A stretch of 39,913 nucleotides of DNA, taken from contig CAOKET010000014.1 in the NCBI GenBank assembly GCA_948467605.1, positions 1-39,913 on the forward strand, written 5' to 3'. Under the pieces are notes generated by a model that did no database searches, was not told the origin of the DNA, and worked only from the letters and a program-made list of their open reading frames with translations. This DNA comes from an uncultured Mycoplasmatota bacterium (lineage in GTDB: Bacteria; Bacillota_I; Bacilli_A; RF39; UBA660). Below, in pieces: positions 18,527 to 33,829 of this stretch (positions within the stretch are counted from its first letter, which is position 1; each line of letters starts with the position of its first letter). The translations under genes were made by a program, and so were the position numbers.

Positions 18527-18551
18527 AAAAAAAAGAGTAATTTAATTACTC
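18527..18551 (-). terminator. Terminator at the end of the virD4-like gene
   Basis: GAGTAAT, loop TAA, ATTACTC followed by eight T on the minus strand, directly overlapping the virD4 stop codon. It closes the whole secretion/pilus cluster. Confidence 0.85.
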
Positions 18552-20599
18552 TAATCATCTAGAAAGAAATCGTCAAAAAATTCATCATCAGTTATCTCTT
18601 CATTAGAAACATCATCATCTAAAATTTTATCTTCAATAGCAGGTGCTGATTCAGTTTTCTCTGCATTGGTTGCCTTTTCTTTTTCTTGTTTTTCTTTCTC
18701 TAATCTTTCTTCTTCTTCTAATTGTGCTATTTTCTCATCTATTCTTTTTACTAAAGCATCTACATCAAGTCCACCACCATTAGGAGCATCTGGTCTCATT
18801 GGTGGCATTTCACCAAATCCTGGAAACATAGGAGGAGTTGGTGGCATTCCCATTCCCATATTATTATCCTTTTGATCAAACATTCCAAATAAACTTGCTT
18901 GTTTCTTTTCTTTTACAAAATCCCTAACATTAAACACTTCAATAGGATGTTTTTCCCTTTCAACTAACTCAGCTTTTTCATACTTTTTATTTCCAAAATT
19001 ATATTGAGATATATCAGGGAACTTTGTCTTAAATGGGCAACTTCTAAGTTTCATAATTATTGCTTCACCCATTTTCATCTGTTGTAAATCACTTATTGTA
19101 ACAAGTGGCTTTTTATCATCAGGTTTTCCATCTTTACCTTTTACCTTTTCATCACCACATAGTTTACTTATTTCTTCCAAAGATTGCAACTCACTACTTA
19201 ATAAATATATTTTATTACAGTTACCTTTAATTGTCTCTGCGTTTTCTTTTCCATAAACTTCATTCAATTGAGCAAAGTTTTGTACAATCAAGTAAAATCT
19301 AATTTTCCTTGAACGTGCTGCAGTAATCATTGTTGTTACATCCTTTAATGGTGGCATATTAGCAAACTCATCTAGAATAAAGTTAGTTCTATAAGGTAGA
19401 GTACCACCATTTTCTTGGGCAACATCAATTAAAGTTTCATAACATTGCTTTAAAAATATAGTTGCTAGTGGATGATATGTTTTCTTTTCATCCTGAATTA
19501 TAATAAATACTGCTGTTTTACTTCTACCAATATCCTTCATATCAAAATCACTATAACTTAACATTTCTGATAAGTTTTCTTTTGATGAGAACAATTTAAT
19601 TTTTTGTTTAAATACTGATAATATTGACCCTTTTGTTTCACTAGGAGCCAAAATTGTTGAAGAAGCATTTACATATGCTGGTTTTGATGGATCTTTCATA
19701 TTAAAATATTCTTTTATATATGTAGAACCAGCAAACTTCTCTTCACCAATAGTAGTCATAAGATTTATACTATTTAAGTTTATTTGTTCTTCTGTAGCGT
19801 CTTCAAATAATCCTAGTGATAAACCTGTAAAATAGTCGGCTGATGTTTTTTCCCAGAATGGGTCACCGTTTTTATTAGATTCATCATAAAGGATATTTAT
19901 AGCAAGGTCATCTAGTAACTCAATTGCCTTATCATTATTACCTTCTTTATACAAACGGTAAGGTAAAGAAAGTGGATTCCATGCTTGTCCTAAATGAGGA
20001 TTACGTAAGTTAATAACTACGATATTATAACCTCTATCTCGTAAAAAAGAAGCGTTTTCTTCATATAACTCACCCTTAGGGTCAGTTAATATCATTGATT
20101 CACCCTTTTTTCCAAGTACATTTATTAAGGGATGAGCAAATCTACGAGATTTACCACTACCAGTAGTACCAATAATCAAGTTATGTGCTTCCCCATCATC
20201 TATCCATAACTCATTTCCATCTGTTATTACAGGCATTCCACCAGCCTTAAACTCCTTATTAAAAGCCATTTCCTTTACAAGAGATTTCTTCATTTCTTTT
20301 GCCTTAGCCCATCTTGAACTACCATCTGATTTCTTTTCAGTTACAATTCCAAAACCAGATTCTCTTGAAAAAAACTTACTACCTGTACCCATTATTATTG
20401 CAATAAGCGCTATTATGTAGAATACCATAGTAGGTGCAAAATACTCACCTGTAAATGCTGGTATTGGATTTAATCCAGCAAATTTGTTGTAATTGGCCAA
20501 ATAAGAAAAGTTAACTACGCCAATAGCAACCATATATAATAACAACACACAAAACAATACAAATATCACTATGTCTTTTGGTTCTGCTCTAAATTTCAT
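18551..20599 (-). CDS. VirD4/TraG-type coupling ATPase
   Basis: The 682-residue membrane ATPase belongs to the type IV secretion coupling protein family. Two N-terminal helices (about 9-32 and 52-72) precede a RecA-like motor with Walker A GTTGSGKS (144-151), DPKGELYEENA downstream of it, Walker B NFILDEFANMPP (406-417) and the TAARSRKIRFYLIVQNF segment typical of TraG/VirD4. The C-terminal 110 residues are unusual: a Met/Pro/Gly-rich stretch (NMGMGMPPTPPMFPGFGEMP), a Glu/Lys coiled coil and an acidic tail ending in DDEFFDDFFLDD, plausible for substrate or partner docking. The ATG at 20599 follows GGAGGTAATT. No relaxase or VirB4 is present, so it may move proteins rather than DNA, or work with parts elsewhere. 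It is the last gene of the cluster and has its own promoter. Confidence 0.88.
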   Translation of the reverse strand: MKFRAEPKDIVIFVLFCVLLLYMVAIGVVNFSYLANYNKFAGLNPIPAFTGEYFAPTMVFYIIALIAIIMGTGSKFFSRESGFGIVTEKKSDGSSRWAKAKEMKKSLVKEMAFNKEFKAGGMPVITDGNELWIDDGEAHNLIIGTTGSGKSRRFAHPLINVLGKKGESMILTDPKGELYEENASFLRDRGYNIVVINLRNPHLGQAWNPLSLPYRLYKEGNNDKAIELLDDLAINILYDESNKNGDPFWEKTSADYFTGLSLGLFEDATEEQINLNSINLMTTIGEEKFAGSTYIKEYFNMKDPSKPAYVNASSTILAPSETKGSILSVFKQKIKLFSSKENLSEMLSYSDFDMKDIGRSKTAVFIIIQDEKKTYHPLATIFLKQCYETLIDVAQENGGTLPYRTNFILDEFANMPPLKDVTTMITAARSRKIRFYLIVQNFAQLNEVYGKENAETIKGNCNKIYLLSSELQSLEEISKLCGDEKVKGKDGKPDDKKPLVTISDLQQMKMGEAIIMKLRSCPFKTKFPDISQYNFGNKKYEKAELVEREKHPIEVFNVRDFVKEKKQASLFGMFDQKDNNMGMGMPPTPPMFPGFGEMPPMRPDAPNGGGLDVDALVKRIDEKIAQLEEEERLEKEKQEKEKATNAEKTESAPAIEDKILDDDVSNEEITDDEFFDDFFLDD

Positions 20600-20624
20600 A
20601 ATTACCTCCAAATATCTACTTACT

Positions 20625-20633
20625 ATTATAACA
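20625..20633 (-). promoter_or_regulatory. Extended -10 promoter of the virD4-like gene
   Basis: Minus-strand TGTTATAAT (hexamer 20625-20630), with only a poor -35 (TTTATT) 17 bases upstream. It lies between the pilin terminator (20693-20714) and virD4, as needed for separate transcription. Confidence 0.5.
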
Positions 20634-20692
20634 AAAAATAACCAAATAATAAATAATAATTAATATATTTGATTATTTTTTAATATTATAAA

Positions 20693-20714
20693 CAAAAAAA
20701 GACCCGAAGATCTT
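20693..20714 (-). terminator. UUCG-tetraloop terminator after the VirB2-like trio
   Basis: AAGATC, loop TTCG, GGTCTT, followed by T-run on the minus strand: a six-pair stem capped by the very stable C(UUCG)G loop. It overlaps the stop codon of the third VirB2-like gene and uncouples the pilin-like genes from virD4. Confidence 0.9.
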
Positions 20715-21159
20715 ATTTTTTAGGAGTAGCACATTTAGTTTTGCTACCAGGCTCACAACATTTTCCTAAACTAGAATTATATTCTGTATAACCACTTTTA
20801 GGTGGATTAGAACAGTTTCCTTCATCCCATGATGATGAATCCCATGGATTATTAATAATTTCCCAACAATGTTTCATTTCATCTCCACCAACAAGACTTA
20901 CTACCATTTTAACAATTGTAACAACGAAGAAAATTGCTGCTGCTAAAATAATTTTCTTTACTAATCCACCTGTTGCTTTCTTTACCTCATCATCTTTACT
21001 TGCTACTACGGCTTTTCCTAAACTTACCAATCCCATTACTACTAAGATTATCGGTATTGCTATTTGAAATACTGAAACAATTTTACCTACTAATACAATT
21101 ATATCTTCAGCATCATTACATACTGTAGTCGCACCATCCAAAAAATTTAAAACTAACAT
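20713..21159 (-). CDS. VirB2/TrbC-like small membrane protein, copy 3 (Cys-rich tail)
   Basis: The 148-residue protein has two hydrophobic helices (about 22-47 and 68-92) joined by the basic-acidic loop GKAVVASKDDEVKKATGG, the layout of VirB2/TrbC pilin-like subunits. The N-terminus is short and not a classical signal peptide. Unlike its two upstream paralogues it has a C-terminal extension of about 40 residues with six cysteines among Ser/Gly/Pro, ending CEPGSKTKCATPKK, probably extracytoplasmic and disulfide-bonded. The ATG at 21159 follows a GGTGGTGAGATAA site. It is the last member of the tandem trio and ends in a UUCG terminator. Function as a pilin or channel subunit is inferred from architecture only. 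Confidence 0.7.
   Translation of the reverse strand: MLVLNFLDGATTVCNDAEDIIVLVGKIVSVFQIAIPIILVVMGLVSLGKAVVASKDDEVKKATGGLVKKIILAAAIFFVVTIVKMVVSLVGGDEMKHCWEIINNPWDSSSWDEGNCSNPPKSGYTEYNSSLGKCCEPGSKTKCATPKK
20927..21070 (-). repeat. 144-bp repeat of the VirB2-like trio, copy 3
   Basis: Encodes the two-helix core. By eye about nine differences from the copy at 21640-21783. See the repeats at 21277 and 21640. Confidence 0.85.
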
Positions 21160-21182
21160 TTATCTCACCACCTTTACATATA

Positions 21183-21527
21183 TTACCATACTGGATTTGT
21201 AACATGAATCCAACACTCACTATTAGCTGCATTATTTGAAACCAAACCAATAACTAATTTTACAATTGCAACAACAAAGAAAATTGCTGCAGCTAAAATT
21301 AATTTTTTTATTAATCCACTTGTTGCTTTCTTTACCTCATCATCTTTACTTGCTACTACTGCTTTTCCTAAACTTACTAAGCCCATTACTACTAAGATTA
21401 TTGGAATTGCTATTTGGAATATTTGAATAATCTTACCAACTAAATTGAATATTGCACCAATTGAACCTGGTTCAGTAGCAGTACAATTAAGTGCATCTTC
21501 AGCAGATGTAGCCAAAAAATTTAACAT
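21183..21527 (-). CDS. VirB2/TrbC-like small membrane protein, copy 2
   Basis: This 114-residue protein has the same two-helix core as its neighbours (loop GKAVVASKDDEVKKATSG, second helix LILAAAIFFVVAIVKLVIGL) and a short C-terminus with one Cys (ECWIHVTNPVW). The N-terminus (MLNFLATSAEDALNCTATEP) differs from the other copies and contains one Cys. The ATG at 21527 follows GAAAGGAAAGATAATT. It ends 23 bases before the next copy begins. It is most likely a structural subunit assembled with its paralogues; separate roles are unknown. Confidence 0.72.
   Translation of the reverse strand: MLNFLATSAEDALNCTATEPGSIGAIFNLVGKIIQIFQIAIPIILVVMGLVSLGKAVVASKDDEVKKATSGLIKKLILAAAIFFVVAIVKLVIGLVSNNAANSECWIHVTNPVW
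21277..21420 (-). repeat. 144-bp repeat of the VirB2-like trio, copy 2
   Basis: By eye four base differences from the copy at 21640-21783, much closer than the flanking parts of the same genes. Confidence 0.85.
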
Positions 21528-21551
21528 AATTATCTTTCCTTTCTTTAAGAA

Positions 21552-21926
21552 TTACCATGGATAATTAATAAGATTCCAACATGAATCCATATCTTGTCCA
21601 CCAACTAGAGTTAAAACTAACTTTACAATAGCTATTACAAAGAAAATTGCTGCTGCTAAAATTAATTTCTTTATTAATCCACTTGTTGCTTTCTTTACCT
21701 CATCATCTTTACTTGCTACTACTGCTTTTCCTAAACTTACTAAGCCCATTACTACTAAGATTATTGGGATTGCTATTTGAAATATTGAAACAATTTTACC
21801 TACTAATTGTACTATTTGACCAACGTCAGTAATCTCTCCACGTAATTTACCATTATTTACAGTAACACTCCCACAAAGTTTTTTAGCAGCCTCACTATTT
21901 GCTAAAAACATCATAAAATTACCCAT
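21552..21926 (-). CDS. VirB2/TrbC-like small membrane protein, copy 1
   Basis: The 124-residue protein is the promoter-proximal member of the trio. It has a hydrophobic N-terminal stretch (MGNFMMFLANSEAAKKLCGS) that may act as a short signal, then the shared two-helix core (loop GKAVVASKDDEVKKATSG) and a C-terminus with a single Cys (MDSCWNLINYPW). Cys residues at both ends occur in all three copies and may form a disulfide on the outer face. GGAGGTATTTCT precedes the ATG at 21926, and a promoter lies at 21947-21975. Confidence 0.72.
   Translation of the reverse strand: MGNFMMFLANSEAAKKLCGSVTVNNGKLRGEITDVGQIVQLVGKIVSIFQIAIPIILVVMGLVSLGKAVVASKDDEVKKATSGLIKKLILAAAIFFVIAIVKLVLTLVGGQDMDSCWNLINYPW
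21640..21783 (-). repeat. 144-bp repeat of the VirB2-like trio, copy 1
   Basis: First in transcription order; spans both helices and the loop. The three repeats are direct and about 350 bp apart. Confidence 0.85.
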
Positions 21927-21946
21927 AGAAATACCTCCATACCATT

Positions 21947-21975
21947 ACTTTAATATAATCTACTTCTTTTGTCAA
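21947..21975 (-). promoter_or_regulatory. Promoter of the VirB2-like trio
   Basis: Minus-strand TTGACA (21970-21975), 17-bp spacer, TAAAGT (21947-21952; two mismatches). The perfect -35 is one arm of an inverted repeat (21969-21998). Confidence 0.45.
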
Positions 21976-21998
21976 TTAATATTGTAAAATATTGACAA
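21969..21998 (-). repeat. Inverted repeat at the -35 of the VirB2-like trio
   Basis: TTGTCAA and TTGACAA arms of seven bases, 16 bases apart, with further partial symmetry (ATATT/AATAT) inside. One arm contains the -35 box, so it could be an operator; it could alternatively act as a weak terminator of the TadZ-like gene. Confidence 0.4.
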
Positions 21999-22003
21999 AA
22001 TAT

Positions 22004-23029
22004 TTAAAATTTAAATAATCCAAATACTTTACTTTTATTAGAAGTATTTGACTTATCATCTTTTATTTGTCTAACAAATCCAACTCTTGATAATAAATCA
22101 TCTAATAGTGTATGTTCACCTAAACGTTCATCTAAGGGAGGAACATTATAAAATACACTAGATTGAGATTCATATTCAAAATCTAATACATCTTTACTAT
22201 TTAACATACTTTTATTTAATATAATTTTCTTAGATTTTAATTTATTAAAAATATTTTTATCTCTACTAATCAACCTATTTAATTTTATAGTAGAAGGTTC
22301 TATTAGATATAATACATCATCGCATACTGGTTCTTCCTCTACAAAACCATTTAAATCTACCAATATAATATCTACTTCTTTATACTGCATTAAAGTTCTT
22401 GCAAAATCTTTTTGATCAACACTAATCATATTTTTATCATTCAAATAATAAAAATCCCTTTTACCTATTTCTATTGCTAATACAGTATAATTGATTTCTA
22501 GTTGTTTTTTTAGCATATAAATTAGTGTAGTAGAACCTGCATGTTCAGTTATATTTCTCACACCTAATATCATCTGACGTTTAGCAACCTCACTAGTAAC
22601 TGTATTGTTATTAATAACTATTTTTTCAGTAACTGCCTGTGCCAATTCATCAAGTTGATGTATATGCGCAACATCCCTATATGTATTAGGATGTTGTAAT
22701 AAATAATTTATACCATCCTTATTTCTAGTAAAATTATAAATTCCCATAGAAATAAGTTTAGATAAATATGCATTAGATGATGACTCAGGATCATCATCTA
22801 ATACAAATATTATTTTATTCATATCTAAAGATACAGAAAGTTTTTGAATAGTTCTGATATCTTTATAATTCTTAATTGCAGTAATATCTAGTATCATCAT
22901 TTGATAATAAAAGTTAGAAAACATATCTATTATTTCATCAACTTCAAATTCACCATTTATTGCCTTCATTACTTCAATATCAAGACCTGCTAACATCGCT
23001 CTATATTTATTAGAAATAATAACGTACAT
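22004..23029 (-). CDS. CpaE/TadZ-like protein with degenerate P-loop
   Basis: The 341-residue protein looks like the Tad localisation ATPase CpaE/TadZ: an N-terminal receiver-like domain (about 1-115) with MMILDIT and IIFVLDDD strands, and a MinD/ParA-type domain from about residue 150. The P-loop position reads GVRNITEHAGSTTLIY (156-171): the deviant Walker A lysines are absent, while the STT and the following helix are kept. TadZ proteins localise the pilus machine to a pole and some are known to have atypical Walker A boxes. DIILVDLNGF (234-243) fits the Walker B strand. GGGAGG precedes the ATG. It lies between the pseudopilin genes and the VirB2-like trio. Confidence 0.68.
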   Translation of the reverse strand: MYVIISNKYRAMLAGLDIEVMKAINGEFEVDEIIDMFSNFYYQMMILDITAIKNYKDIRTIQKLSVSLDMNKIIFVLDDDPESSSNAYLSKLISMGIYNFTRNKDGINYLLQHPNTYRDVAHIHQLDELAQAVTEKIVINNNTVTSEVAKRQMILGVRNITEHAGSTTLIYMLKKQLEINYTVLAIEIGKRDFYYLNDKNMISVDQKDFARTLMQYKEVDIILVDLNGFVEEEPVCDDVLYLIEPSTIKLNRLISRDKNIFNKLKSKKIILNKSMLNSKDVLDFEYESQSSVFYNVPPLDERLGEHTLLDDLLSRVGFVRQIKDDKSNTSNKSKVFGLFKF

Positions 23030-23046
23030 TTTCTTACCTCCCTTAT

Positions 23047-23499
23047 CTAGCCTCTGTCATATAAAACTCTAGTTTCACCTGAAATAGGCCAGTATTTTAC
23101 TAAAGCAGATACTACTGGAATATCAATACGCATAAATGTAGTAACTACATAATAATGTGTCTTAGCAGTTGTATCTTTAAACTCAAAAATGCAACCACCT
23201 TGAATCTGTTTAACACTTTTTGAACAATCACTTTGTTGAACATTATATTCTTTTCTAAACAAATCACAACAATACTGTGATGTAATATTAGTCACACCAC
23301 CACTGCGAGAAGCCATATAATTATTTATTTCAGTAGATGCATTATTATAACCTTCATACTGTTCAATTAAGGTAATAACGTGATTCTTAGTATTAAATGC
23401 TCTAGCATATACAACTGCAAATGCTAGAATTGCAACATATACACCTAAAAATATAAGAACTAAGTTAAACAAAAATGCTCCACCTATCGATTCTCTCAT
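23047..23499 (-). CDS. TadE-like pseudopilin
   Basis: The 150-residue protein has one N-terminal helix (about 8-32; AFLFNLVLIFLGVYVAILAF) and a C-terminal outer domain of about 115 residues with at least four cysteines (QYCCDLFRKEY, SDCSK, GGCIF). The size, topology and neighbourhood match TadE/TadF-type minor pilins, though the signature is weak. AAGGAGAGG lies close before the ATG. It stands 29 bases after the 52-residue pilin and 18 bases before the TadZ-like gene. Inferred role: minor pilin or assembly-initiating protein. Confidence 0.65.
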   Translation of the reverse strand: MRESIGGAFLFNLVLIFLGVYVAILAFAVVYARAFNTKNHVITLIEQYEGYNNASTEINNYMASRSGGVTNITSQYCCDLFRKEYNVQQSDCSKSVKQIQGGCIFEFKDTTAKTHYYVVTTFMRIDIPVVSALVKYWPISGETRVLYDRG

Positions 23500-23527
23500 T
23501 ATTACCTCTCCTTAAACTTTTATAATA

Positions 23528-23686
23528 CTATTTTGGCATATTTAAACTTGTATTTGTTACATTACCGAAAGAATTGTTAATCCATCCAGATAAAGTTGGC
23601 CATAAAAGTGCAACTAACCCTGCTATTGCTGCTATTGCAATAATTGTAACTACAGTTAAACTTAATTCACCTGACGCTTTTTCCAT
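23528..23686 (-). CDS. Flp-sized single-helix pilin candidate (52 residues)
   Basis: A small gene: MEKASGELSLTVVTIIAIAA begins it, followed by GLVALLWPTLSGW and a polar tail ending NTSLNMPK. The layout is that of Flp-type pilins: a short polar leader, Gly6-Glu7, one long hydrophobic helix and a short hydrophilic tail. The canonical G-x4-E-Y processing motif is not exactly present, so the cleavage point is uncertain. GGAGG lies 9 bases before the ATG and a near-consensus promoter stands upstream, which suggests strong expression as expected for a major pilin. It lies directly after the TadC-like gene, the normal place for Tad structural genes. Confidence 0.72.
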   Translation of the reverse strand: MEKASGELSLTVVTIIAIAAIAGLVALLWPTLSGWINNSFGNVTNTSLNMPK

Positions 23687-23715
23687 ATATTTGTTCCTCC
23701 TTCCATCATAGTTTT

Positions 23716-23744
23716 ATTATACCCCAACATGTTTTTAATATCAA
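23716..23744 (-). promoter_or_regulatory. Promoter of the 52-residue pilin
   Basis: Minus-strand TTGATA (23739-23744), 17-bp spacer, TATAAT (23716-23721), 30 bases before the ATG. It lies in the only sizeable gap between the TadC-like gene and the pilin. Confidence 0.7.
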
Positions 23745-23770
23745 GAAATATGTCATTTTTTACATTTATT

Positions 23771-24553
23771 TTACAATGCAACTGTTATAACAAGTGAAAT
23801 AAGCATTAATATCATCGCACCACCACCAGTTATAACTAACATAAGCATTGTTTTATTTTCCATTTTTCTTAAACGCTCTTTATATTTTACCTCTCTTGTT
23901 TTACTTTGTAATGAAGAAACATTTCTAGCAAATATAAGTAATTGTTCTTGTTTATGTTCGCCAGATCCTAAACTTAAACGATAAAGAAGCCTCATCATTC
24001 TCATTGAATCTCTTACAGGATAAGCCTTAGCAAAATCCATATAAGGATCTACTGTCATATCACCAGCATTTATCTTAGCAATTAGTTCATTTAAACCAGA
24101 TTTAAACATATCTGGAGCAGTTTCAATAGATTTACCAAGAGCAACTGGAACTGTATAATGCTGAACTAATATTTCTAGACTCTTTAAATAGTATGGCAAT
24201 AACATATCAATTTCATGTAAATGCGCTTTATAATAATTCTTTAACTGCATATATGGAACTTTGTATATTAGAAAACCAACAATTAAAGTAAGACCAATAT
24301 TAACATAATTCAAATTTGTAATAAACATAAAGAAGAATACAAGCATTACTGCAAATGCCATTTTAACTCTTTTCATAAACAATATTTGAACATCTATATC
24401 GTCTCCATATTTACTTCTTAAATAAAATTCATAATCTTTTTCCTTAAGTAATTCAAAATATCTTTCATTATCTTTCGCAAATTTATTACTACTAACTATA
24501 TTATTTGATTCCAAAATAATAAATATTATAAGCCCAATTATTAATATTTCCAT
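23771..24553 (-). CDS. TadC-like type II secretion F-domain protein
   Basis: The 260-residue protein has one N-terminal helix (2-15), two helices at about 65-100, a cytosolic T2SSF domain (about 115-225: LLPYYLKSLEILVQHYTVPV, then LYRLSLGSGEHKQEQ) and a C-terminal helix (about 235-258). These proteins form the inner-membrane platform that couples the CpaF/TadA ATPase to pilin extrusion. It overlaps the TadB-like gene as TAATG, so the two are translated together. Confidence 0.8.
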   Translation of the reverse strand: MEILIIGLIIFIILESNNIVSSNKFAKDNERYFELLKEKDYEFYLRSKYGDDIDVQILFMKRVKMAFAVMLVFFFMFITNLNYVNIGLTLIVGFLIYKVPYMQLKNYYKAHLHEIDMLLPYYLKSLEILVQHYTVPVALGKSIETAPDMFKSGLNELIAKINAGDMTVDPYMDFAKAYPVRDSMRMMRLLYRLSLGSGEHKQEQLLIFARNVSSLQSKTREVKYKERLRKMENKTMLMLVITGGGAMILMLISLVITVAL

Positions 24554-25449
24554 TATTCAGCACCTACATTCTCACAATAGTATTTTTCTCCATTAAGTAG
24601 GAAATAACTATTTATTAATATTATTGCATGTAGCATTATATTTACATACCATAAACCTAATATATCATTATAAGTTTCTGCACCTAATATAAGTTGAATA
24701 AGCATTATTAAAATATAAAGTATTACACCAAATTGTATAAATTGTTTATGGAAGTTTGATCTATCTACTCTGTCTCTATAAACAGATTCAACAAGCATAT
24801 CTATATCATTTAACATGTTTTCTAGTGAGCCTTCTGAATCTCTTGAACCTTCTTTAGTTATTTGTAAGAACAACTGATGCATATTTTTTACAACATAATA
24901 ATCATATCTTTCATTCATGTATTCTATAGAAGCATCAAGAAAACCATTTTCATATGCTAAATCTATCATCATCTTAACATCAGATGATAGTGGCTCTTCT
25001 AATACTCCAGATGCATATACCCCTTCTAGTGCCCTAACAAAAGATTTAACTGTTTCAAACTCCATTATTACATTTGTAGTATAAACTTGCACTTGTTCAA
25101 ATATAAATTCACTATAACTTTTTTTACATCTTAAATATGCTAAATAAGGCACAAATGCTATAGCGGCAATTACATATATAATTGAAATTATTATATTGTA
25201 AAAATATAAATATGAAATTGCAAATGCAGCAGTACCCATTATAGCAATTTGAGTAGTATATTGTTTTGGGGTAAATTCTAGACCTAATTCTTTAGTCTTT
25301 TCCCTAACTTCCTTAAAAGAATAAGGTGCATATTTATTGTATACATTTGTTGCCTTACCTACTATATATTTATATACCCTAGCACCTTCTTGCCTTCTAT
25401 AAATTATAATTAATGCAACAACTACACCAACAATAAGAACTTCTAACAT
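24553..25449 (-). CDS. TadB-like type II secretion F-domain protein
   Basis: The 298-residue platform protein has an N-terminal helix (3-19), paired helices at about 70-105, a cytosolic F-domain (about 120-230; EFETVKSFVRALEGVYASG and LFLQITKEGSRDSEGSLENM) and two C-terminal helices. In Tad systems TadB and TadC form a hetero-oligomeric platform below the pilus. GAGGGTGCAAT leads the ATG. It lies 14 bases after the CpaF-like ATPase gene. Confidence 0.8.
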   Translation of the reverse strand: MLEVLIVGVVVALIIIYRRQEGARVYKYIVGKATNVYNKYAPYSFKEVREKTKELGLEFTPKQYTTQIAIMGTAAFAISYLYFYNIIISIIYVIAAIAFVPYLAYLRCKKSYSEFIFEQVQVYTTNVIMEFETVKSFVRALEGVYASGVLEEPLSSDVKMMIDLAYENGFLDASIEYMNERYDYYVVKNMHQLFLQITKEGSRDSEGSLENMLNDIDMLVESVYRDRVDRSNFHKQFIQFGVILYILIMLIQLILGAETYNDILGLWYVNIMLHAIILINSYFLLNGEKYYCENVGAE

Positions 25450-25463
25450 ATTGCACCCTCTTT

Positions 25464-26543
25464 CTAATCTAATACTTCATCTTTTTTTTCTATATTAGGA
25501 ACATTATAGTTTAATTTTAATCCCTGATTTTCTAGATAACTAACTAAATATTTACTAGGGCTTCCATAAGATATAATTCCATCAGCAGTCTTAGAATAAA
25601 TTATATTTGTACCGATTTTATTATCATCTGTAACATAAAACTCGACAACTTCACTAATTTCACGTTGAAATCTTTGATATTTACTAGAATATTGTCCTCT
25701 TATGTGAACCCCAAGATGAATATATCTATAAATCGATTTTAAATATTGATCAATATCTTGACTTGTTTCAAGCAAACTATACATTCTTTGTGGAATCAAC
25801 ATTGCTCTATCAGAGTGAATAGTTGATAAAATATTATGACCAGAAGAAATAGAGTTTCTAACAGCCATAACAGCCTCAGCACTACGAACTTCTGAAAGTA
25901 ATATCCATTTAGGATTCTGTCTCATACAAGTAACTAATACATCAGAATAACTAGCAATATTATTAGTTTTCATAGCAACTATATCACGATGTGGAAAAAT
26001 ACGATCTAAGTGTAACTCTAAAGTATCTTCAATAGTAACTATTTTTTCATTCTCATATGTATTAGAAGCCAGATATTTAACAAACTCAGTTTTACCAGAA
26101 CCTGTTTCACCACTTACTATAATATTACAGTGTCCATGTACACACTCTATTAAAAAGTCGTGTATTTGAGCAGTAATATAATCTTCACTTATTATTTTTT
26201 CTTTATTTAATCTTATTTTAGCAGGAGTTTTTCTTAATGTTAACGCTATTCCATTTTGCGCAATTGAATCATGAACAAAGTTAAAACGAAGTTCAGCACT
26301 TTCTGCATCCAAAAATGGATAGGCAGCATTAAATGATTTCCCCATTATATTTGCACATTGAAATGCAAGTTTTTCCATAAATGCATTATCAATACCTGGA
26401 TTTTCAACTCTATAAACACCCTTAGTTAATGATTTCAAATGAAGTTGTCCATTGTTACTATAAGAAATATCTGTTATATCATCATCATCCATATATTCCT
26501 TTAAGTAACCAAAATCCATTTGTGAAAATATACCATTATTCAT
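25464..26543 (-). CDS. CpaF/TadA-family secretion ATPase
   Basis: The 359-residue hexameric motor belongs to the VirB11/CpaF family. The sequence shows Walker A SGETGSGKTE (144-153), the Asp box TIEDTLEL (170-177), Walker B WILLSEVR (213-220; Ser replaces the usual Gly before Glu) and the His box GHNILSTIHS (235-244). The N-terminal domain is shorter than in proteobacterial CpaF. It would power pilin insertion through the TadB/TadC platform; VirB11-like ATPases also work in type IV secretion, so it could serve both halves of this hybrid cluster. The ATG at 26543 follows AGGTGAT by 7 bases; the upstream in-frame start lacks a site. It overlaps the end of the CpaB-like gene by 8 bases. Confidence 0.88.
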   Translation of the reverse strand: MNNGIFSQMDFGYLKEYMDDDDITDISYSNNGQLHLKSLTKGVYRVENPGIDNAFMEKLAFQCANIMGKSFNAAYPFLDAESAELRFNFVHDSIAQNGIALTLRKTPAKIRLNKEKIISEDYITAQIHDFLIECVHGHCNIIVSGETGSGKTEFVKYLASNTYENEKIVTIEDTLELHLDRIFPHRDIVAMKTNNIASYSDVLVTCMRQNPKWILLSEVRSAEAVMAVRNSISSGHNILSTIHSDRAMLIPQRMYSLLETSQDIDQYLKSIYRYIHLGVHIRGQYSSKYQRFQREISEVVEFYVTDDNKIGTNIIYSKTADGIISYGSPSKYLVSYLENQGLKLNYNVPNIEKKDEVLD

Positions 26544-27387
26544 CTTTATTATCACCTGTATTATTATCTTTGTTATCTCCTGGTGTTACAGTAATATCTA
26601 ATTCATCTTCTGGAACAAATGCTGTCATAGCATTTATATAATCCACTAAATACTGACTAGTAACTTTAGTTTCTCCCTCTTTTTCTGCAAAATCCATAGT
26701 ATTAGGTACTGGGATAAGTTCTACAGAAATACTTGATAAATACATACATTTTCTTAATAATAAATGCACTTCTGGATCAATAGCAAAGAATAGATATGCA
26801 GGTACTCTTTCTTCTTCAGTTGTTTCAAATACATTTTTACCAGCACCATCTTTAACGGCTAATATCTTAATGTTACTAAGTAATTTACCAACCATTATAT
26901 CGCCTGTTTCATTTTTACCTTTAAAATATATATCAATATATCCATTAGGCATCATTGCATTACCATATGTAGAAGCCATAGTAACAGGTAAGTTAAATAA
27001 TACCTTATCTTCTGGTACTTCAATAAATGCAGCATCTGGTAAATCTTGTTGTGATATTACAGTAGCACCAAAGAACATACTTCCTGCTGGTATTAAAGTA
27101 TTATAATTTGAATATTTATTTACAATATTTATTTTATCTCTTATAACACCATTATTTATCATTGCAGGTGGCACTTGAATATATTCAATCATATCATCTG
27201 TTATTTGAGTTCTGGGTTGAATATCTACCTTAGCAACAGGAACCAAAACCGGATTTATTGCTTGTTTAACACGATAGTTATAAGCAACATAAAGAATTAT
27301 AACACATAGTACAACACCTAATATTGTAATAGTATTTTTGTTTTTTAAAAACTTAGTTAGTTTTTTTACAAAATTATTGTTTTTCAT
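26536..27387 (-). CDS. CpaB/RcpC-like SAF-domain pilus assembly protein
   Basis: The 283-residue protein has a short basic cytosolic start, one helix (about 19-38) and an outer SAF domain (about 50-120: VPVAKVDIQPRTQITDDMIE, then AGSMFFGATV) followed by the RcpC-type domain. In Gram-negatives CpaB/RcpC is periplasmic and connects platform and secretin; in Gram-positives without an outer membrane it is thought to guide the pilus through the wall. The Asp/Asn-rich C-terminus is low complexity. AGGAGG precedes the ATG. It overlaps the CpaF-like gene. Confidence 0.8.
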   Translation of the reverse strand: MKNNNFVKKLTKFLKNKNTITILGVVLCVIILYVAYNYRVKQAINPVLVPVAKVDIQPRTQITDDMIEYIQVPPAMINNGVIRDKINIVNKYSNYNTLIPAGSMFFGATVISQQDLPDAAFIEVPEDKVLFNLPVTMASTYGNAMMPNGYIDIYFKGKNETGDIMVGKLLSNIKILAVKDGAGKNVFETTEEERVPAYLFFAIDPEVHLLLRKCMYLSSISVELIPVPNTMDFAEKEGETKVTSQYLVDYINAMTAFVPEDELDITVTPGDNKDNNTGDNKDE

Positions 27388-27395
27388 ATTTCCTC

Positions 27396-27809
27396 CTAAT
27401 ATTTAGTTTCAATTATTGCATCAATACGATTGGCAATTGTATAAGTACCATCTCCAGTTAAGTCAGTTGTAAAATTAAATTGATCTGTATCACTTGTAAC
27501 AGTCAAAGTAACTTTAGGTGGCATCTCAACTACATCGTATATATCTATATAATAAGTTCTATCTCTTTGAACTGATGCACTCCATCTACGTACAAAACTC
27601 TCAACGAATTTTTCACGTACTATCCTAACCTCCCCATGATATCTATAATAATCTACATCAACTGCATCATACATAGCAGCCTCTGTAACCTCTTTAAGCA
27701 AATAGTAATTGTGTTGATCAGAAGTTGTTATATCTTGGAATAGCATTATAAAGGCTACTCCTATTACCCCAGCAACAACAATTGCTACTGCCCACATACT
27801 CTCTTTCAA
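27396..27809 (-). CDS. TadE/DUF5411-like single-helix surface protein
   Basis: This 137-residue protein has an N-terminal helix (about 6-24; WAVAIVVAGVIGVAFIML) and an outer domain with TDQHNYYLLKEVTEAAMYDA and REKFVESFVRRW segments. It resembles, from memory, a family of about 130-residue proteins found next to Tad genes in gut Firmicutes and annotated DUF5411; I cannot confirm that. I take TTG at 27809 as start because GGTGAT lies 6 bases upstream; an ATG four codons downstream is the alternative. The lengthy helix followed by charged soluble domain suits a minor pilin or pseudopilin. Confidence 0.6.
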   Translation of the reverse strand: MKESMWAVAIVVAGVIGVAFIMLFQDITTSDQHNYYLLKEVTEAAMYDAVDVDYYRYHGEVRIVREKFVESFVRRWSASVQRDRTYYIDIYDVVEMPPKVTLTVTSDTDQFNFTTDLTGDGTYTIANRIDAIIETKY

Positions 27810-27812
27810 CTT

Positions 27813-30800
27813 CTAATCACCACTTTCTATACTTCTACTAGTTTTATAAACATTTACACCAGGCATATTCTTAAGAGTCCTGTATCTTGTATTTATTATA
27901 TCATAATTTCTTGTAAATACACTACTTCCTAAACTATTTAATATAGAACTTTCATAATCACTTGAACATCTACTATTTCCATTATAAGTACATTTACTTG
28001 GATTATACCAACTTCCCAAGTCTATATTCGTATAATATTCTTTATAATCACTTGCTATCTTATTCATTGTACTTGGAGTTAATGTTACATGATACATTGG
28101 TTTATCTTTAGTATAGTTAAAGTTATCTGTTCTTTTAAAATCATTTGATACGTATAACCAGTTTCTTCCAGGTTGTCTACAATTACTTGTTGGATTTACA
28201 CAGAAACCTGATCCTTTTCCTGGAAATAATGAACTTACACTTACCACTCTAAAATCTAGGCAATCTGAGTAATATACTCCTTTTTCCAAATTACCTTTTT
28301 TATCATATTTACATGCACATGTTGATTCCTCTGGATTACAATAATGATCTGTTACATCTAATGCACATAATGCCTTGTCCATATTCCATGTACCTGCTAC
28401 TCCAAAGTATTTTCCATCACTAGAATTATAATCACTAGATCCTAGTGTTATTTGATAGTAATCTGATAAATTAACTTGACTAACATATTTTTCTCCCAAT
28501 TCTTCAAATCTATCCTTTATTTTATCTGGAACAGAATCAGGTGTTAAAGTATAATTAGCATTTAATTTAATAGACTCTTCTTTATAAGTATCTTCTATAG
28601 TTACATACATTGTCTTTGTAACTTCGCCTTCATAATAAATTCCATAACTACATGAATCTGTTATAGTAAACTGTTGTTTTACCCAATTTGGTTCACATTC
28701 TTCTTCTGCATTAGCACACTCTGCTCTACACTGCTGCACTTCAGCCCTACATTCTTTATCTCCTCTATCACAATTTTTATTACAACCAATTTTACAATCA
28801 TCAACTGCCCTATCACACATATTTATATCAACACAACCATTTGAACCAGGATTACATGGTATTTCGTCAGACGCTGAATAATTATTGCCACCAATCCTAC
28901 CAAATTGTCTTTCAAGGATTCCATAGTAATGGTCTTTATTATATGTCACGGTTTCTGGGTATCTATTTTTTTCTTCATCTGACATATTGTTAAATCTATC
29001 TCTTGCTTTAGATTCTAAATCGCTACATTTATCATCAAATTTTTCAACTTGATCATTACAATTTTTACTATATTCATAATAATATGTACCATCATCGTTT
29101 CTCTTTTTTTCCCATCTACATCCCTGATTCAAATTTGCAGACTTCATAGAATCGGAATTATAGTCATCAACATATTTAGTAATTTCAAGTTTTTGTACAA
29201 ATGTAGATGTAGGAAAACCACCAAGTGGATCTGAAAAACTAGAATCCTTCGCCGCTATTTCACTCATATGCTTGAACATTGAGGATGAACCGTTTGCTGA
29301 ATATGCTATTTGAGTTGGTTCATTAATAGTAGTATCCACATTAAATACTGAAACTGTTTGATGTGTAGTTGTATCTACTAGATAAAGTTGTGGAATATTT
29401 TTTATTTTATCCTTTATAATATCCATTGAAAATTTTCCCTCTTTGTTATATAGCAAATATTCAGAAACTGTATCAGAATCAAATTCTTCATCAGCGAAAT
29501 GAATGTCCCTATCATTACTTGCATGACCCTTATAATTACAATCTTCATCATAATAATCAACACCAACAACTCTTCTTTGGTCCAAACTTACACATATTAA
29601 TTCTGTATCATAATTAACATTTAATGAGTATGCACCACCAGAATATGTTAGTATATAGTCTGCTTTATTTGGACTTGTAGTTGTAAATGAACCTTTTTGA
29701 TAACAGAACGCTTTATTATATTGTTTTTCTAATATTCCATTTTTATCTCTTGTAAATAATGTATATGTCGAATCTGATGCTGCACAATACTTAGGATAAT
29801 CTTTAACTTCTGTACTACTACCTTTATTAGTTGTAGTTCTATACCCTGTGTCAGTAGTATTTGCATTATTCCAATATGTATAATACTCTGGATCAATCGG
29901 ATCAAATTTGTCATCAATTTCTATCGGGCAATTTCCCCCACCTGGAGTGAAACAACAAGCAGTATCATTTGGATTACTTCGACAATAGTTTCTTCTTGCA
30001 GCAGTGCCTGGTTTAGTACCGCCACAAATTAAACTACTACAACATATATTATAATCACTAGGTTTCTTCTTGCCATCAGAGATATCACAATACGCTTTTC
30101 TTTCATCGCTTCCTTGTAATGTTCCACCACACTTTTGAGCATCTTTTTTTATAGTTATTAAACCACTATAACTAATCCATGGAGAAATAGCATAATAACG
30201 GTCAAATACATTACCTGATAAAAGTAATTTATCGTTATTAAAAGTCTTTTTTGTTCCTAAATTATAAAACTCAAAACCACCCAACCTTGATGTATCACCT
30301 GCAAGATTAATTCTATTAATAGGTAAAACTTCCTTTATAACATAGTTTTCACTAGATTTAAAATACCCACCACCAGAACTTGGCCCTTTTTGTTTAATTT
30401 TACCATTGTCATTATAATAAGGCATAGTTTTTTCTTGATTAATTTTCCCTTGATTTAAACCATGATTAATGAAAATTTGATCAAAATTAGAATTAACCTT
30501 TACTTTTTGACCATCACTTTTTACTGTTAATCCATCACCTGTTACAACTAAACCAGGTGCTGCTATTAGATGAGGATCACTTTTACCAGTACCACTATGA
30601 GTTACTTCCAAATATATTTTATATGTTTCCCCATCTTTAAAACTGGATAAATCAAAATATCCAAAAAAACCTATATCATCATAAAAATATGTACCATATT
30701 GCCCTTCATTATATTGAGGGGTATTATTTTGTACATTAAAATTTCTCCTACTATAATTTACTGGCTCATTAGGAAATTCTCCCAAAGGTGCAAGAAATCC

Positions 30801-31235
30801 ATCACAATGTTCTGCTTTACCATTTACAGTAGGTTTAAAATAATCAACACAAGTTGCACTTGTACCTTGAACACGTAAATTTGCCCATGTGCTACTATTA
30901 CCATCTCTATTTTTTGCATATATAATGCCATTATTGTTGTTATTTGGTTGTGCATATAATCTATATTTTACACTATCAATTCCCTTACCAGCACATCTTT
31001 CTGCAACTCCAACATCATTTCCATTTTTATCCGTCATTTTATATCCATTATATGTTCGATTATCTGAATTACAATAATCCATTAAAGTATAATAAGCCCA
31101 ACCTCTTATAGCAACCTTTTCATCATCAACTGTAATACTATTTATTCCATATGTAAATACAGATGCTTTAACACTTATAGGTAACAAGAATAATAAAAAC
31201 ACAGTTACAGATAAATATAAAATATTTTTCTTCAT
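27813..31235 (-). CDS. Large cysteine-rich secreted protein of the cluster
   Basis: The 1140-residue protein starts with a signal peptide (MKKNILYLSVTVFLLFLLPI, cleavage near VKAS) and continues as an extracytoplasmic protein rich in Asn, Tyr, Gly and Cys. I see no LPxTG, no C-terminal helix and no known repeat. Cysteine clusters occur near residues 370-440 (several C-C and C-x-G-G pairs) and at about 785-850, with a heptad-like CDRAVDDCKIGCNKNCDRGD block. Disulfides or metal binding are likely. The ATG at 31235 follows GGAGGTGTTTGTA. Being second in the operon and by far the largest gene, it may be the tip adhesin, a shaft protein or an effector. I do not recognise a homologue. Confidence 0.75.
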   Translation of the reverse strand: MKKNILYLSVTVFLLFLLPISVKASVFTYGINSITVDDEKVAIRGWAYYTLMDYCNSDNRTYNGYKMTDKNGNDVGVAERCAGKGIDSVKYRLYAQPNNNNNGIIYAKNRDGNSSTWANLRVQGTSATCVDYFKPTVNGKAEHCDGFLAPLGEFPNEPVNYSRRNFNVQNNTPQYNEGQYGTYFYDDIGFFGYFDLSSFKDGETYKIYLEVTHSGTGKSDPHLIAAPGLVVTGDGLTVKSDGQKVKVNSNFDQIFINHGLNQGKINQEKTMPYYNDNGKIKQKGPSSGGGYFKSSENYVIKEVLPINRINLAGDTSRLGGFEFYNLGTKKTFNNDKLLLSGNVFDRYYAISPWISYSGLITIKKDAQKCGGTLQGSDERKAYCDISDGKKKPSDYNICCSSLICGGTKPGTAARRNYCRSNPNDTACCFTPGGGNCPIEIDDKFDPIDPEYYTYWNNANTTDTGYRTTTNKGSSTEVKDYPKYCAASDSTYTLFTRDKNGILEKQYNKAFCYQKGSFTTTSPNKADYILTYSGGAYSLNVNYDTELICVSLDQRRVVGVDYYDEDCNYKGHASNDRDIHFADEEFDSDTVSEYLLYNKEGKFSMDIIKDKIKNIPQLYLVDTTTHQTVSVFNVDTTINEPTQIAYSANGSSSMFKHMSEIAAKDSSFSDPLGGFPTSTFVQKLEITKYVDDYNSDSMKSANLNQGCRWEKKRNDDGTYYYEYSKNCNDQVEKFDDKCSDLESKARDRFNNMSDEEKNRYPETVTYNKDHYYGILERQFGRIGGNNYSASDEIPCNPGSNGCVDINMCDRAVDDCKIGCNKNCDRGDKECRAEVQQCRAECANAEEECEPNWVKQQFTITDSCSYGIYYEGEVTKTMYVTIEDTYKEESIKLNANYTLTPDSVPDKIKDRFEELGEKYVSQVNLSDYYQITLGSSDYNSSDGKYFGVAGTWNMDKALCALDVTDHYCNPEESTCACKYDKKGNLEKGVYYSDCLDFRVVSVSSLFPGKGSGFCVNPTSNCRQPGRNWLYVSNDFKRTDNFNYTKDKPMYHVTLTPSTMNKIASDYKEYYTNIDLGSWYNPSKCTYNGNSRCSSDYESSILNSLGSSVFTRNYDIINTRYRTLKNMPGVNVYKTSRSIESGD

Positions 31236-31268
31236 TACAAACACCTCCAACTTTACCCCAAATTAAAT

Positions 31269-32221: not shown

Positions 32222-32902
32222 TTATTTATTAAAAATTAATTTTACATGTGCAGTAATGTCTTCATCACTAATTTCACTTTCAAAATTAAGACTCTGAATC
32301 ATTGCAGAATACCCTATATTATTTTTAAGAATTTCTGTCAAATTTTTTGAATAATATCTCGGAACATAGCCTAAGTGATATTTTTCTTTATTTTTATCAA
32401 GAATTATTCTAATAGCATTTTCATCATATTCATTTTTTGAATCCAATTCTAATAACAATTTATCATTCACACTAATCAAATCCTTACATCTATGTACATC
32501 AGGACAATGTCTTGTACCCGCAACATCAAATTCAACTTTACTAATATCAAAAGCTGGTACAAATTCATAATTATCTGTAATTAATCTTCCCTTAGTCGCT
32601 TTTAAAATCTCTAATTTTGTTGCATTAGTTCCTAAATTATATGAATTTAAAATTTCTAAGTAATCAGGTCTTGCAGTATTAGGTAATCTAGTTTCAATAT
32701 TTGCAAATAATTCTTTGTTCTTATATATTTCATGAATGTTATCAAAACCTGGAAAACATTTAAATCCAACACTAGTTGCACTGTTTAACTCTGGTTCTAC
32801 ATATTTAAATGTATATATACCATTATCATAGTTTAAAATCCCTATCTTATACCTTGTCCTTGTTTCAGGTTGTTTCCAAATAAGCCACATTTCATCTTGC
32901 AT
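32222..32902 (-). CDS. HIRAN-domain protein, partner of a HipA-like kinase
   Basis: The 226-residue protein has an N-terminal half of unknown fold and a C-terminal HIRAN domain (about 125-225): the start FDVAGTRHC, the LLLELDSKNEYDENAIRI core (where a D-x-N-A motif is characteristic) and the LGYVPRYYSKNL strand. HIRAN domains bind DNA 3' ends or damaged DNA in some proteins and occur alone in prokaryotes. GAGGTGAT precedes the ATG. It lies 15 bases after the HipA-like kinase gene and belongs to the same transcript. It might regulate, neutralise or direct the kinase; this is inference. Confidence 0.72.
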   Translation of the reverse strand: MQDEMWLIWKQPETRTRYKIGILNYDNGIYTFKYVEPELNSATSVGFKCFPGFDNIHEIYKNKELFANIETRLPNTARPDYLEILNSYNLGTNATKLEILKATKGRLITDNYEFVPAFDISKVEFDVAGTRHCPDVHRCKDLISVNDKLLLELDSKNEYDENAIRIILDKNKEKYHLGYVPRYYSKNLTEILKNNIGYSAMIQSLNFESEISDEDITAHVKLIFNK

Positions 32903-32917
32903 TTTTAATCACCTCAC

Positions 32918-33772
32918 TCAATTTATATTTAAAAGTATATCTCTTCTTTTTTTCAAGTATTTTATTATATATTCTTTATGAATTTTAGTCAATAAATCAT
33001 CTGGTATTTTCCCAACAATGTTTTCTATTATTTCATCAGTTAGCTTATTTAAATTTAAAATTTCTGGTTGAACAAGTTTATTATAATGTATATTTAAATA
33101 TTCAATTAGTTCAAAATGCTTATATTGTTTTATATTATCTTCCTTATATATTAATGTCTTACTTCTATTAATATATGCATCAAAATCTTTTTTACCACTA
33201 TAATAATTATTTGCATAGATTTCATTTTTAAACTTATTTAATAAACTACACCCATTATCATATAGTGGCGAAAACCTATATTGATCTCCTAGTCTTTCTA
33301 TTCCCCAATTTTCCTCATGTCTATCCTGTTCACCAACTAGCGCATCAAAAACCATAACCTTTATAAAACCTTCAAATAAATTTTCATCTAGTGTATCTAG
33401 TTTTTTCTTTATATTTGAAATTGTATAGTATTTTGCTCTTTCACTGTCATATGTTTTTAAATATGAAATTGAATCTATATGTTCTACATCTCCTATATCA
33501 ATAAACAAATAATTTAATACACCCAATATGCCCTCTGAGTCATTTGCAAGTTCTATTCTAGCACAATCATATCCAAGAATTTTAGCAATTTCATAACACA
33601 TTTTTTCTGAACAAGCCTCACTTACCAAATATCCATTTCCTTCATATTTGAAGTAAGCTTTATTACCATTATTATCAACAACAATTTTCTTAACCCTAGA
33701 TCCTTTTGTATTAAAACTGCTATCTAAGAATTTAAAGTCTTTATCTGGCATTTTGATAGGATATTTTTCCAT
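32918..33772 (-). CDS. HipA-like serine/threonine kinase (CtkA-like)
   Basis: The 284-residue protein has the HipA kinase fold: AYFKY with Lys42, Glu in SEACSEKMCYEIAKILG, the catalytic loop VGEQDRHEENWGI with Asp150 and Asn155, and the metal-binding PLYDNGCSL with Asp172. It is shorter than HipA (about 440) and lacks the N-terminal HipA_N domain, resembling the short CtkA-type/HipA_C kinases. HipA phosphorylates glutamyl-tRNA synthetase and causes growth arrest; whether this one does is unknown. No classic HipB HTH lies beside it; the HIRAN gene takes the second position. GGTAGGTGG precedes the ATG. Its promoter overlaps a palindrome. Confidence 0.75.
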   Translation of the reverse strand: MEKYPIKMPDKDFKFLDSSFNTKGSRVKKIVVDNNGNKAYFKYEGNGYLVSEACSEKMCYEIAKILGYDCARIELANDSEGILGVLNYLFIDIGDVEHIDSISYLKTYDSERAKYYTISNIKKKLDTLDENLFEGFIKVMVFDALVGEQDRHEENWGIERLGDQYRFSPLYDNGCSLLNKFKNEIYANNYYSGKKDFDAYINRSKTLIYKEDNIKQYKHFELIEYLNIHYNKLVQPEILNLNKLTDEIIENIVGKIPDDLLTKIHKEYIIKYLKKRRDILLNIN

Positions 33773-33792
33773 TCAACCACCTACCTTATGTT

Positions 33793-33812
33793 ACATGATT
33801 ATTATATCATGT
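33793..33812 (-). promoter_or_regulatory. Palindromic operator candidate over the kinase -10
   Basis: ACATGAT, six-base spacer, ATCATGT (33793-33799 and 33806-33812). The -10 hexamer lies inside the spacer. Further related half-sites (ATGATGTAA near 33821) occur upstream. The arrangement suggests repression of the kinase operon. Confidence 0.55.
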
Positions 33813-33829
33813 ATAATTTATGATGTAAA
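33801..33829 (-). promoter_or_regulatory. Promoter of the HipA-like kinase/HIRAN operon
   Basis: Minus-strand TTTACA (33824-33829), 17-bp spacer, TATAAT (33801-33806). Confidence 0.65.

Follow-up and report, generated by a model that had tools for sequence, protein, structure and literature searches.

Introduction

The closest described relative of the locus discussed here is the hipIN module, in which the gene for a short kinase, HipI, is followed by that for HipN, a HipS-like domain joined to a HIRAN domain (Gerdes, Baerentsen and Brodersen 2021, PMC8262856). In their proposal, the HipS-like part is what neutralises the kinase, and the HIRAN domain binds DNA, possibly single-stranded; their Table 1 holds no experimentally analysed module in the hipIN clade. 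My literature search on HipI and HipN returned this paper as its sole match, found no toxicity, binding or phage experiment for any hipIN pair and, by a term search of the paper's main text, no description of a HipN that lacks a kinase. A 2025 paper also places HipA-HIRAN gene pairs beside one in three diDNase genes of gram-positive bacteria (PMC11706625), and the PADLOC database predicts a phage-defence candidate, PDC-M03, made of an A and a B protein; no paper naming PDC-M03 was found in the literature search. In the related hipBST system, HipS blocks the kinase HipT sterically, with a tryptophan that is inserted close to the Gly-rich loop (PMC10627512), and for HipAD, or DS-6, which combines a HipA-like kinase with a partner other than HipB, phage defence that needs the kinase activity has been reported (DefensePredictor, PMC13092281).

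In this article, I will discuss a kinase-HIRAN gene pair on a contig of an uncultured Mycoplasmatota bacterium (CAOKET010000014.1), of which the whole stretch analysed, 39,913 nucleotides, is called the window. Judged by the order of its genes and by its domains, the pair is a hipIN module, and so of a kind already published: the kinase is without N-subdomain 1, the downstream protein is a HipN (HipS-like plus HIRAN), the order of the genes is the same, the kinase has 284 aa where the published short kinases have 279-321, a Ser/Thr lies beside the Gly-rich loop, and no difference sets the pair apart. Its proteins also match the A and B proteins of PDC-M03 and are encoded side by side. The likeness to the other systems is only partial. 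The kinase fold is the same as in hipBA, where, however, the antitoxin is the helix-turn-helix (HTH) protein HipB and HipA has N-subdomain 1 in cis. The hipBST kinase also lacks N-subdomain 1 and is controlled by a separate antitoxin of the HipS fold, but that system includes the HTH protein HipB, and its HipS precedes HipT and has no HIRAN domain. HipL possesses the same kinase, HipS-like and HIRAN domains, although all on one chain, and the partner in HipAD is a DUF3037 and DUF1829 protein rather than HipS-HIRAN.

The hipIN locus and its two proteins

The features of the locus are as follows.

32918..33772, minus strand: hipI, short HipA-type Ser/Thr kinase, 284 aa
32222..32902, minus strand: hipN, HipS-like plus HIRAN protein, 226 aa, probable antitoxin
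32549..32899, minus strand: HipS-like domain of HipN, residues 2-118, from fold comparison
32225..32545, minus strand: HIRAN domain of HipN, residues 120-226, from PF08797 and fold comparison
33801..33829, minus strand: promoter-like site, TTTACA (33824-33829), 17 bp, extended -10 TGATATAAT (33801-33809)
33792..33813, no strand: palindrome TACATGAT-N6-ATCATGTA over the -10 box, chance-level and not conserved
33777..33786, minus strand: hipI ribosome-binding site AGGTAGGTGG, read from the sequence

The two genes lie on the same strand with 15 bp between them. HipI matches PF07804 (HipA_C, E 2.1e-11) and PDC-M03A (E 2.1e-66); it is short, has a Gly-rich loop near residue 24 together with catalytic and Mg-binding motifs, and lacks the HipA N-subdomain 1 in its sequence and predicted structure. 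Since its G24, K42, D150-R-H-x-x-N155 and D172 never vary in an alignment of 25 HipI kinases, the kinase is likely active. Its AlphaFold model (mean pLDDT 88.7; the models had only the window and fetched relatives as input) is nearest to the solved folds of CtkA (Z 27.4), HipT (Z 18.8) and HipA (Z 17.9).

HipN matches PDC-M03B (E 9.3e-66) and, over residues 122-200, the HIRAN family PF08797 (E 3.6e-12), so that, as in the published modules, the HIRAN domain is C-terminal in the downstream protein. In the AlphaFold model (mean pLDDT 92.1), residues 2-118 superpose on Legionella pneumophila HipS (Z 12.9, 99 residues, 2.0 A), on Escherichia coli HipS (Z 12.3) and on the N-terminal domain of HipA (Z 10.2), and residues 120-226 superpose on the HIRAN domains of lp_0118 (Z 15.4) and of human HLTF bound to DNA (Z 11.7). 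Because of this HipS fold and the identity with the published hipIN pair, HipN is likely the antitoxin. An earlier note, made from the letters of this DNA, had described a short HipA-fold kinase with intact catalytic residues, a HIRAN-domain partner and no HTH antitoxin. The kinase and the HIRAN domain are borne out by the profiles and the alignment, and domain searches found no HTH domain in HipN or in the adjacent genes, which is a departure from hipBA; the first domain of HipN, its antitoxin-like half, had been missed. It is therefore misleading to speak of a HIRAN protein in place of an antitoxin, and the option offered in the same note that this protein is the antitoxin is probably correct, as judged from the HipS fold of its first half.

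The resemblance of the HipN N-terminal half to N-subdomain 1, which is part of an active HipA, would also agree with a HipN that the kinase needs in order to be complete, as a subunit or as a substrate adaptor, in which case the pair would be a signalling kinase and not a toxin-antitoxin module. I consider this unlikely: in HipBST a protein of this fold is a proven antitoxin (PMC10627512), and the genomic survey below bears on it as well.

The genes around hipIN in the window are ordinary chromosomal genes (thioredoxin-like, whiA and CofD-family), and this housekeeping setting, outside any defence island, speaks against the toxin-antitoxin reading that I otherwise favour. Beside hipIN, at 18551-31250, is a cluster that could be a secretion or surface system, with a TraG/VirD4-like coupling protein (PF02534) and three repeated small membrane proteins (20713-21926), as well as a T2SSE ATPase (25464-26555) and a Cys-rich protein that is large and looks secreted (27813-31250).

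The palindrome at the promoter

The earlier note had also placed the -10 box inside an ACATGAT/ATCATGT palindrome and offered the HIRAN protein as an autoregulator that binds there. The palindrome exists and does overlap the -10 box, but it is at chance level for an A+T-rich promoter: when the 100 bp ahead of the hipI start codon were shuffled 1000 times with dinucleotides preserved, 82 of the shuffles contained an inverted repeat with arms of at least 8 and a spacer of at most 12, and for the whole window shuffling gives a mean of 41 such repeats where the real sequence has 56. The palindrome is missing from all of 21 related intact operons, its left half being the extended -10 TGnTATAAT common to most of them; the perfect palindrome occurs once in its own genome, where matches with two mismatches are as many as for a backwards control. 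On these three grounds, the shuffles, the own-genome search and the related promoters, the palindrome was dismissed as evidence for an operator. Moreover, known HIRAN domains bind DNA ends and not sequence motifs (PMC8262856), and autoregulation by HipN through this site must be regarded as highly improbable.

Pairing and repeated loss of the kinase

The pairing of the kinase with a HIRAN protein, described in the earlier note, is conserved across genomes, with the order and spacing of hipI and hipN maintained among related loci, and corresponds to the published hipIN and to PADLOC PDC-M03. To count each gene without bias, HipN and HipI were searched singly in 386 genomes belonging to the same family, which gave 15 loci with intact HipN and 10 with HipI; both genes are present at 9 loci and HipN only at 6. 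A HipI without HipN was not seen in these 386 genomes (at one HipI locus, L042, just the first 14 codons of HipN lie on the contig, which ends there), and six loci with HipN only against none with HipI only gives a two-sided binomial p of 0.031. This is the pattern in which a toxin is never found without its antitoxin and the antitoxin may stand alone. That HipI is never without HipN would also suit a HipN that is a required subunit of the kinase.

A second set of 45 loci came from GTDB contigs, scanned for patterns with a HipN alignment, and, since these were found through HipN, cannot be used to count loci with HipI only. The kinase is full-length in 23 of these loci, cut by the contig end in 1, frameshifted, stopped or partly deleted in 7, and absent or reduced to a stub of no more than 23 residues in 13, while in the last both HipI and HipN are broken; an intact HipN is thus accompanied by a broken or absent kinase at 20/45 loci. 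On the HipN tree the solitary label requires 11 changes, at least 6 of them forced by well-supported branches. One pair of genomes provides a direct picture of the loss, since the order is GtrA-HipI-HipN in G602 and GtrA-HipN in G343, with orthologous GtrA proteins that are 62% identical. Assembly errors in metagenome-assembled genomes may explain single frameshifts, but not clean deletions. Related bacteria repeatedly lose HipI and keep HipN intact, and this observation is new. That the kinase gene has been lost repeatedly is more in keeping with a costly toxin than with one half of a signalling kinase. Scans of viral contigs added few further loci.

HipN without a kinase

By its substitution pattern, the HipN that has no kinase is under purifying selection. 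Pairs of kinase-less HipN have dN/dS values of 0.11-0.20, compared to 0.11-0.22 for paired HipN, and of the columns invariant in 23 paired HipN, 97.6% in the HipS part and 96.4% in the HIRAN part are kept in 19 kinase-less HipN; with retention this high in both parts, neither half has decayed. A subunit would be expected to decay after the loss of its kinase, and the retention of the HipS part is thus a further argument against a HipN that merely completes the kinase. Since HipN is retained in the absence of HipI, the pattern fits either immunity against a mobile HipI or a function of HipN alone. I would tentatively, and with somewhat less than even confidence, view HipN as a protein in its own right in gut Bacilli, which either confers immunity against HipI arriving on phages or plasmids or serves as a DNA-sensing regulator of something else.

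A separate reading is that solitary HipN has a job independent of the kinase, for example binding DNA ends, and that the HipI operon is only one of two states. The two HipN domains are equally conserved; two loci (L112 and L113) share the same kinase-less arrangement scpA-scpB-HipN with a dN/dS of 0.19 at a dS of 0.77; and in 14 genomes with kinase-less HipN no intact HipI-clade kinase was found elsewhere, only distant HipA relatives or the locus's own broken copy. However, immunity against phage- or plasmid-borne HipI would likewise preserve both domains, and a HIRAN activity alone leaves the retention of the HipS part unexplained; I find this reading quite unlikely. The idea that solitary HipN may be a guard against some other Hip kinase of its own genome was set against the occurrence of distant Hip kinases, several of which carry a small partner of their own: they are present in 9/14 genomes with kinase-less HipN, in 6/16 with the pair (p 0.27) and in 24/142 family genomes without HipI (p 0.0003 against this background), in genomes that are related and come from different collections, which limits what these counts can say. 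Solitary HipN adjoins gltX in L099 (6972-8630) and lies upstream of serS in L073, but a scan for class I synthetase motifs around the 45 loci returned L099 only, and the link between solitary HipN and aminoacyl-tRNA synthetases was set aside as probably due to chance.

Mobile and distant relatives

Distant relatives are found in the Clostridioides prophage phiCDKH02, beside the integrase; in a 14-kb Vibrio phage-like element with a PM2-like capsid gene; and on a plasmid of Nostoc, next to genes of DUF499 and DUF1156. Similarly, the one-chain HipL is encoded in the P2-like Escherichia phage 899, with the replication gene on one side and the portal gene on the other, and occurs at ≥99% identity in 61/5426 E. 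coli genomes. From these mobile contexts of the relatives, a phage-responsive role of the pair is plausible. Saccharibacteria contigs from sheep and goat ileum (L114, L116) also carry hipIN, with HipN 44-47% identical to that of gut Bacilli, which suggests transfer between phyla.

Several other arrangements of HipA-like kinases came to light. At L139 (1994-3834), 3 bp separate a HipA_C kinase gene (286 aa) from the trpS-like gene downstream of it (PF00579, E 3.3e-76); HipT is known to target TrpS, and here a toxin gene and a gene of the target family stand side by side. At L141 (1918-4419) and L140 (510-3061), a HipA-like kinase (278-279 aa) adjoins a glutamyl/glutaminyl-tRNA synthetase gene of PF00749, the family of GltX, which is the target of HipA. 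In eight loci (L007, L050, L057, L131-L134 and L142), a protein of ~78-98 aa without a Pfam match is encoded directly upstream of a short HipA-like kinase, often with an overlap of a few bases, and a 132-aa HTH protein in L005 ends in a stretch similar to these; they are possibly an undescribed antitoxin family. At L135 (745-1974), L037 (1498-2686) and L039 (425-1539), a HipS-like gene without HIRAN precedes the kinase, the reverse of the published hipJS order.

Discussion

The reading that I consider probable is that the pair works as a hipIN toxin-antitoxin module in which HipN restrains HipI and DNA releases it to act on a target in translation. Beyond the domain content, the operon and the pattern of loss, which are observed, I infer the inhibition, the trigger and the target by analogy: the HipS-like domain of HipN would cap HipI and hold the kinase in check; the HIRAN domain would sense DNA ends or single-stranded DNA, such as that of replicating phage, and loosen the hold of HipN; and the freed HipI would phosphorylate some component of translation, most likely an aminoacyl-tRNA synthetase, leading to translation arrest and a halt in growth. 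A HipN retained without its kinase would then protect against HipI that enters from outside, or have some role of its own.

The hipIN modules form a predicted family of toxin-antitoxin and phage-defence systems whose members fuse a DNA-binding domain to a kinase-blocking one, and if it is true that DNA binding frees the kinase, these modules would link the sensing of DNA ends to a stop in translation. That HipI was lost repeatedly and HipN stayed provides genomic evidence on which of the two partners is the toxin, and the natural HipN-only genes are on offer for tests of immunity against incoming toxins.
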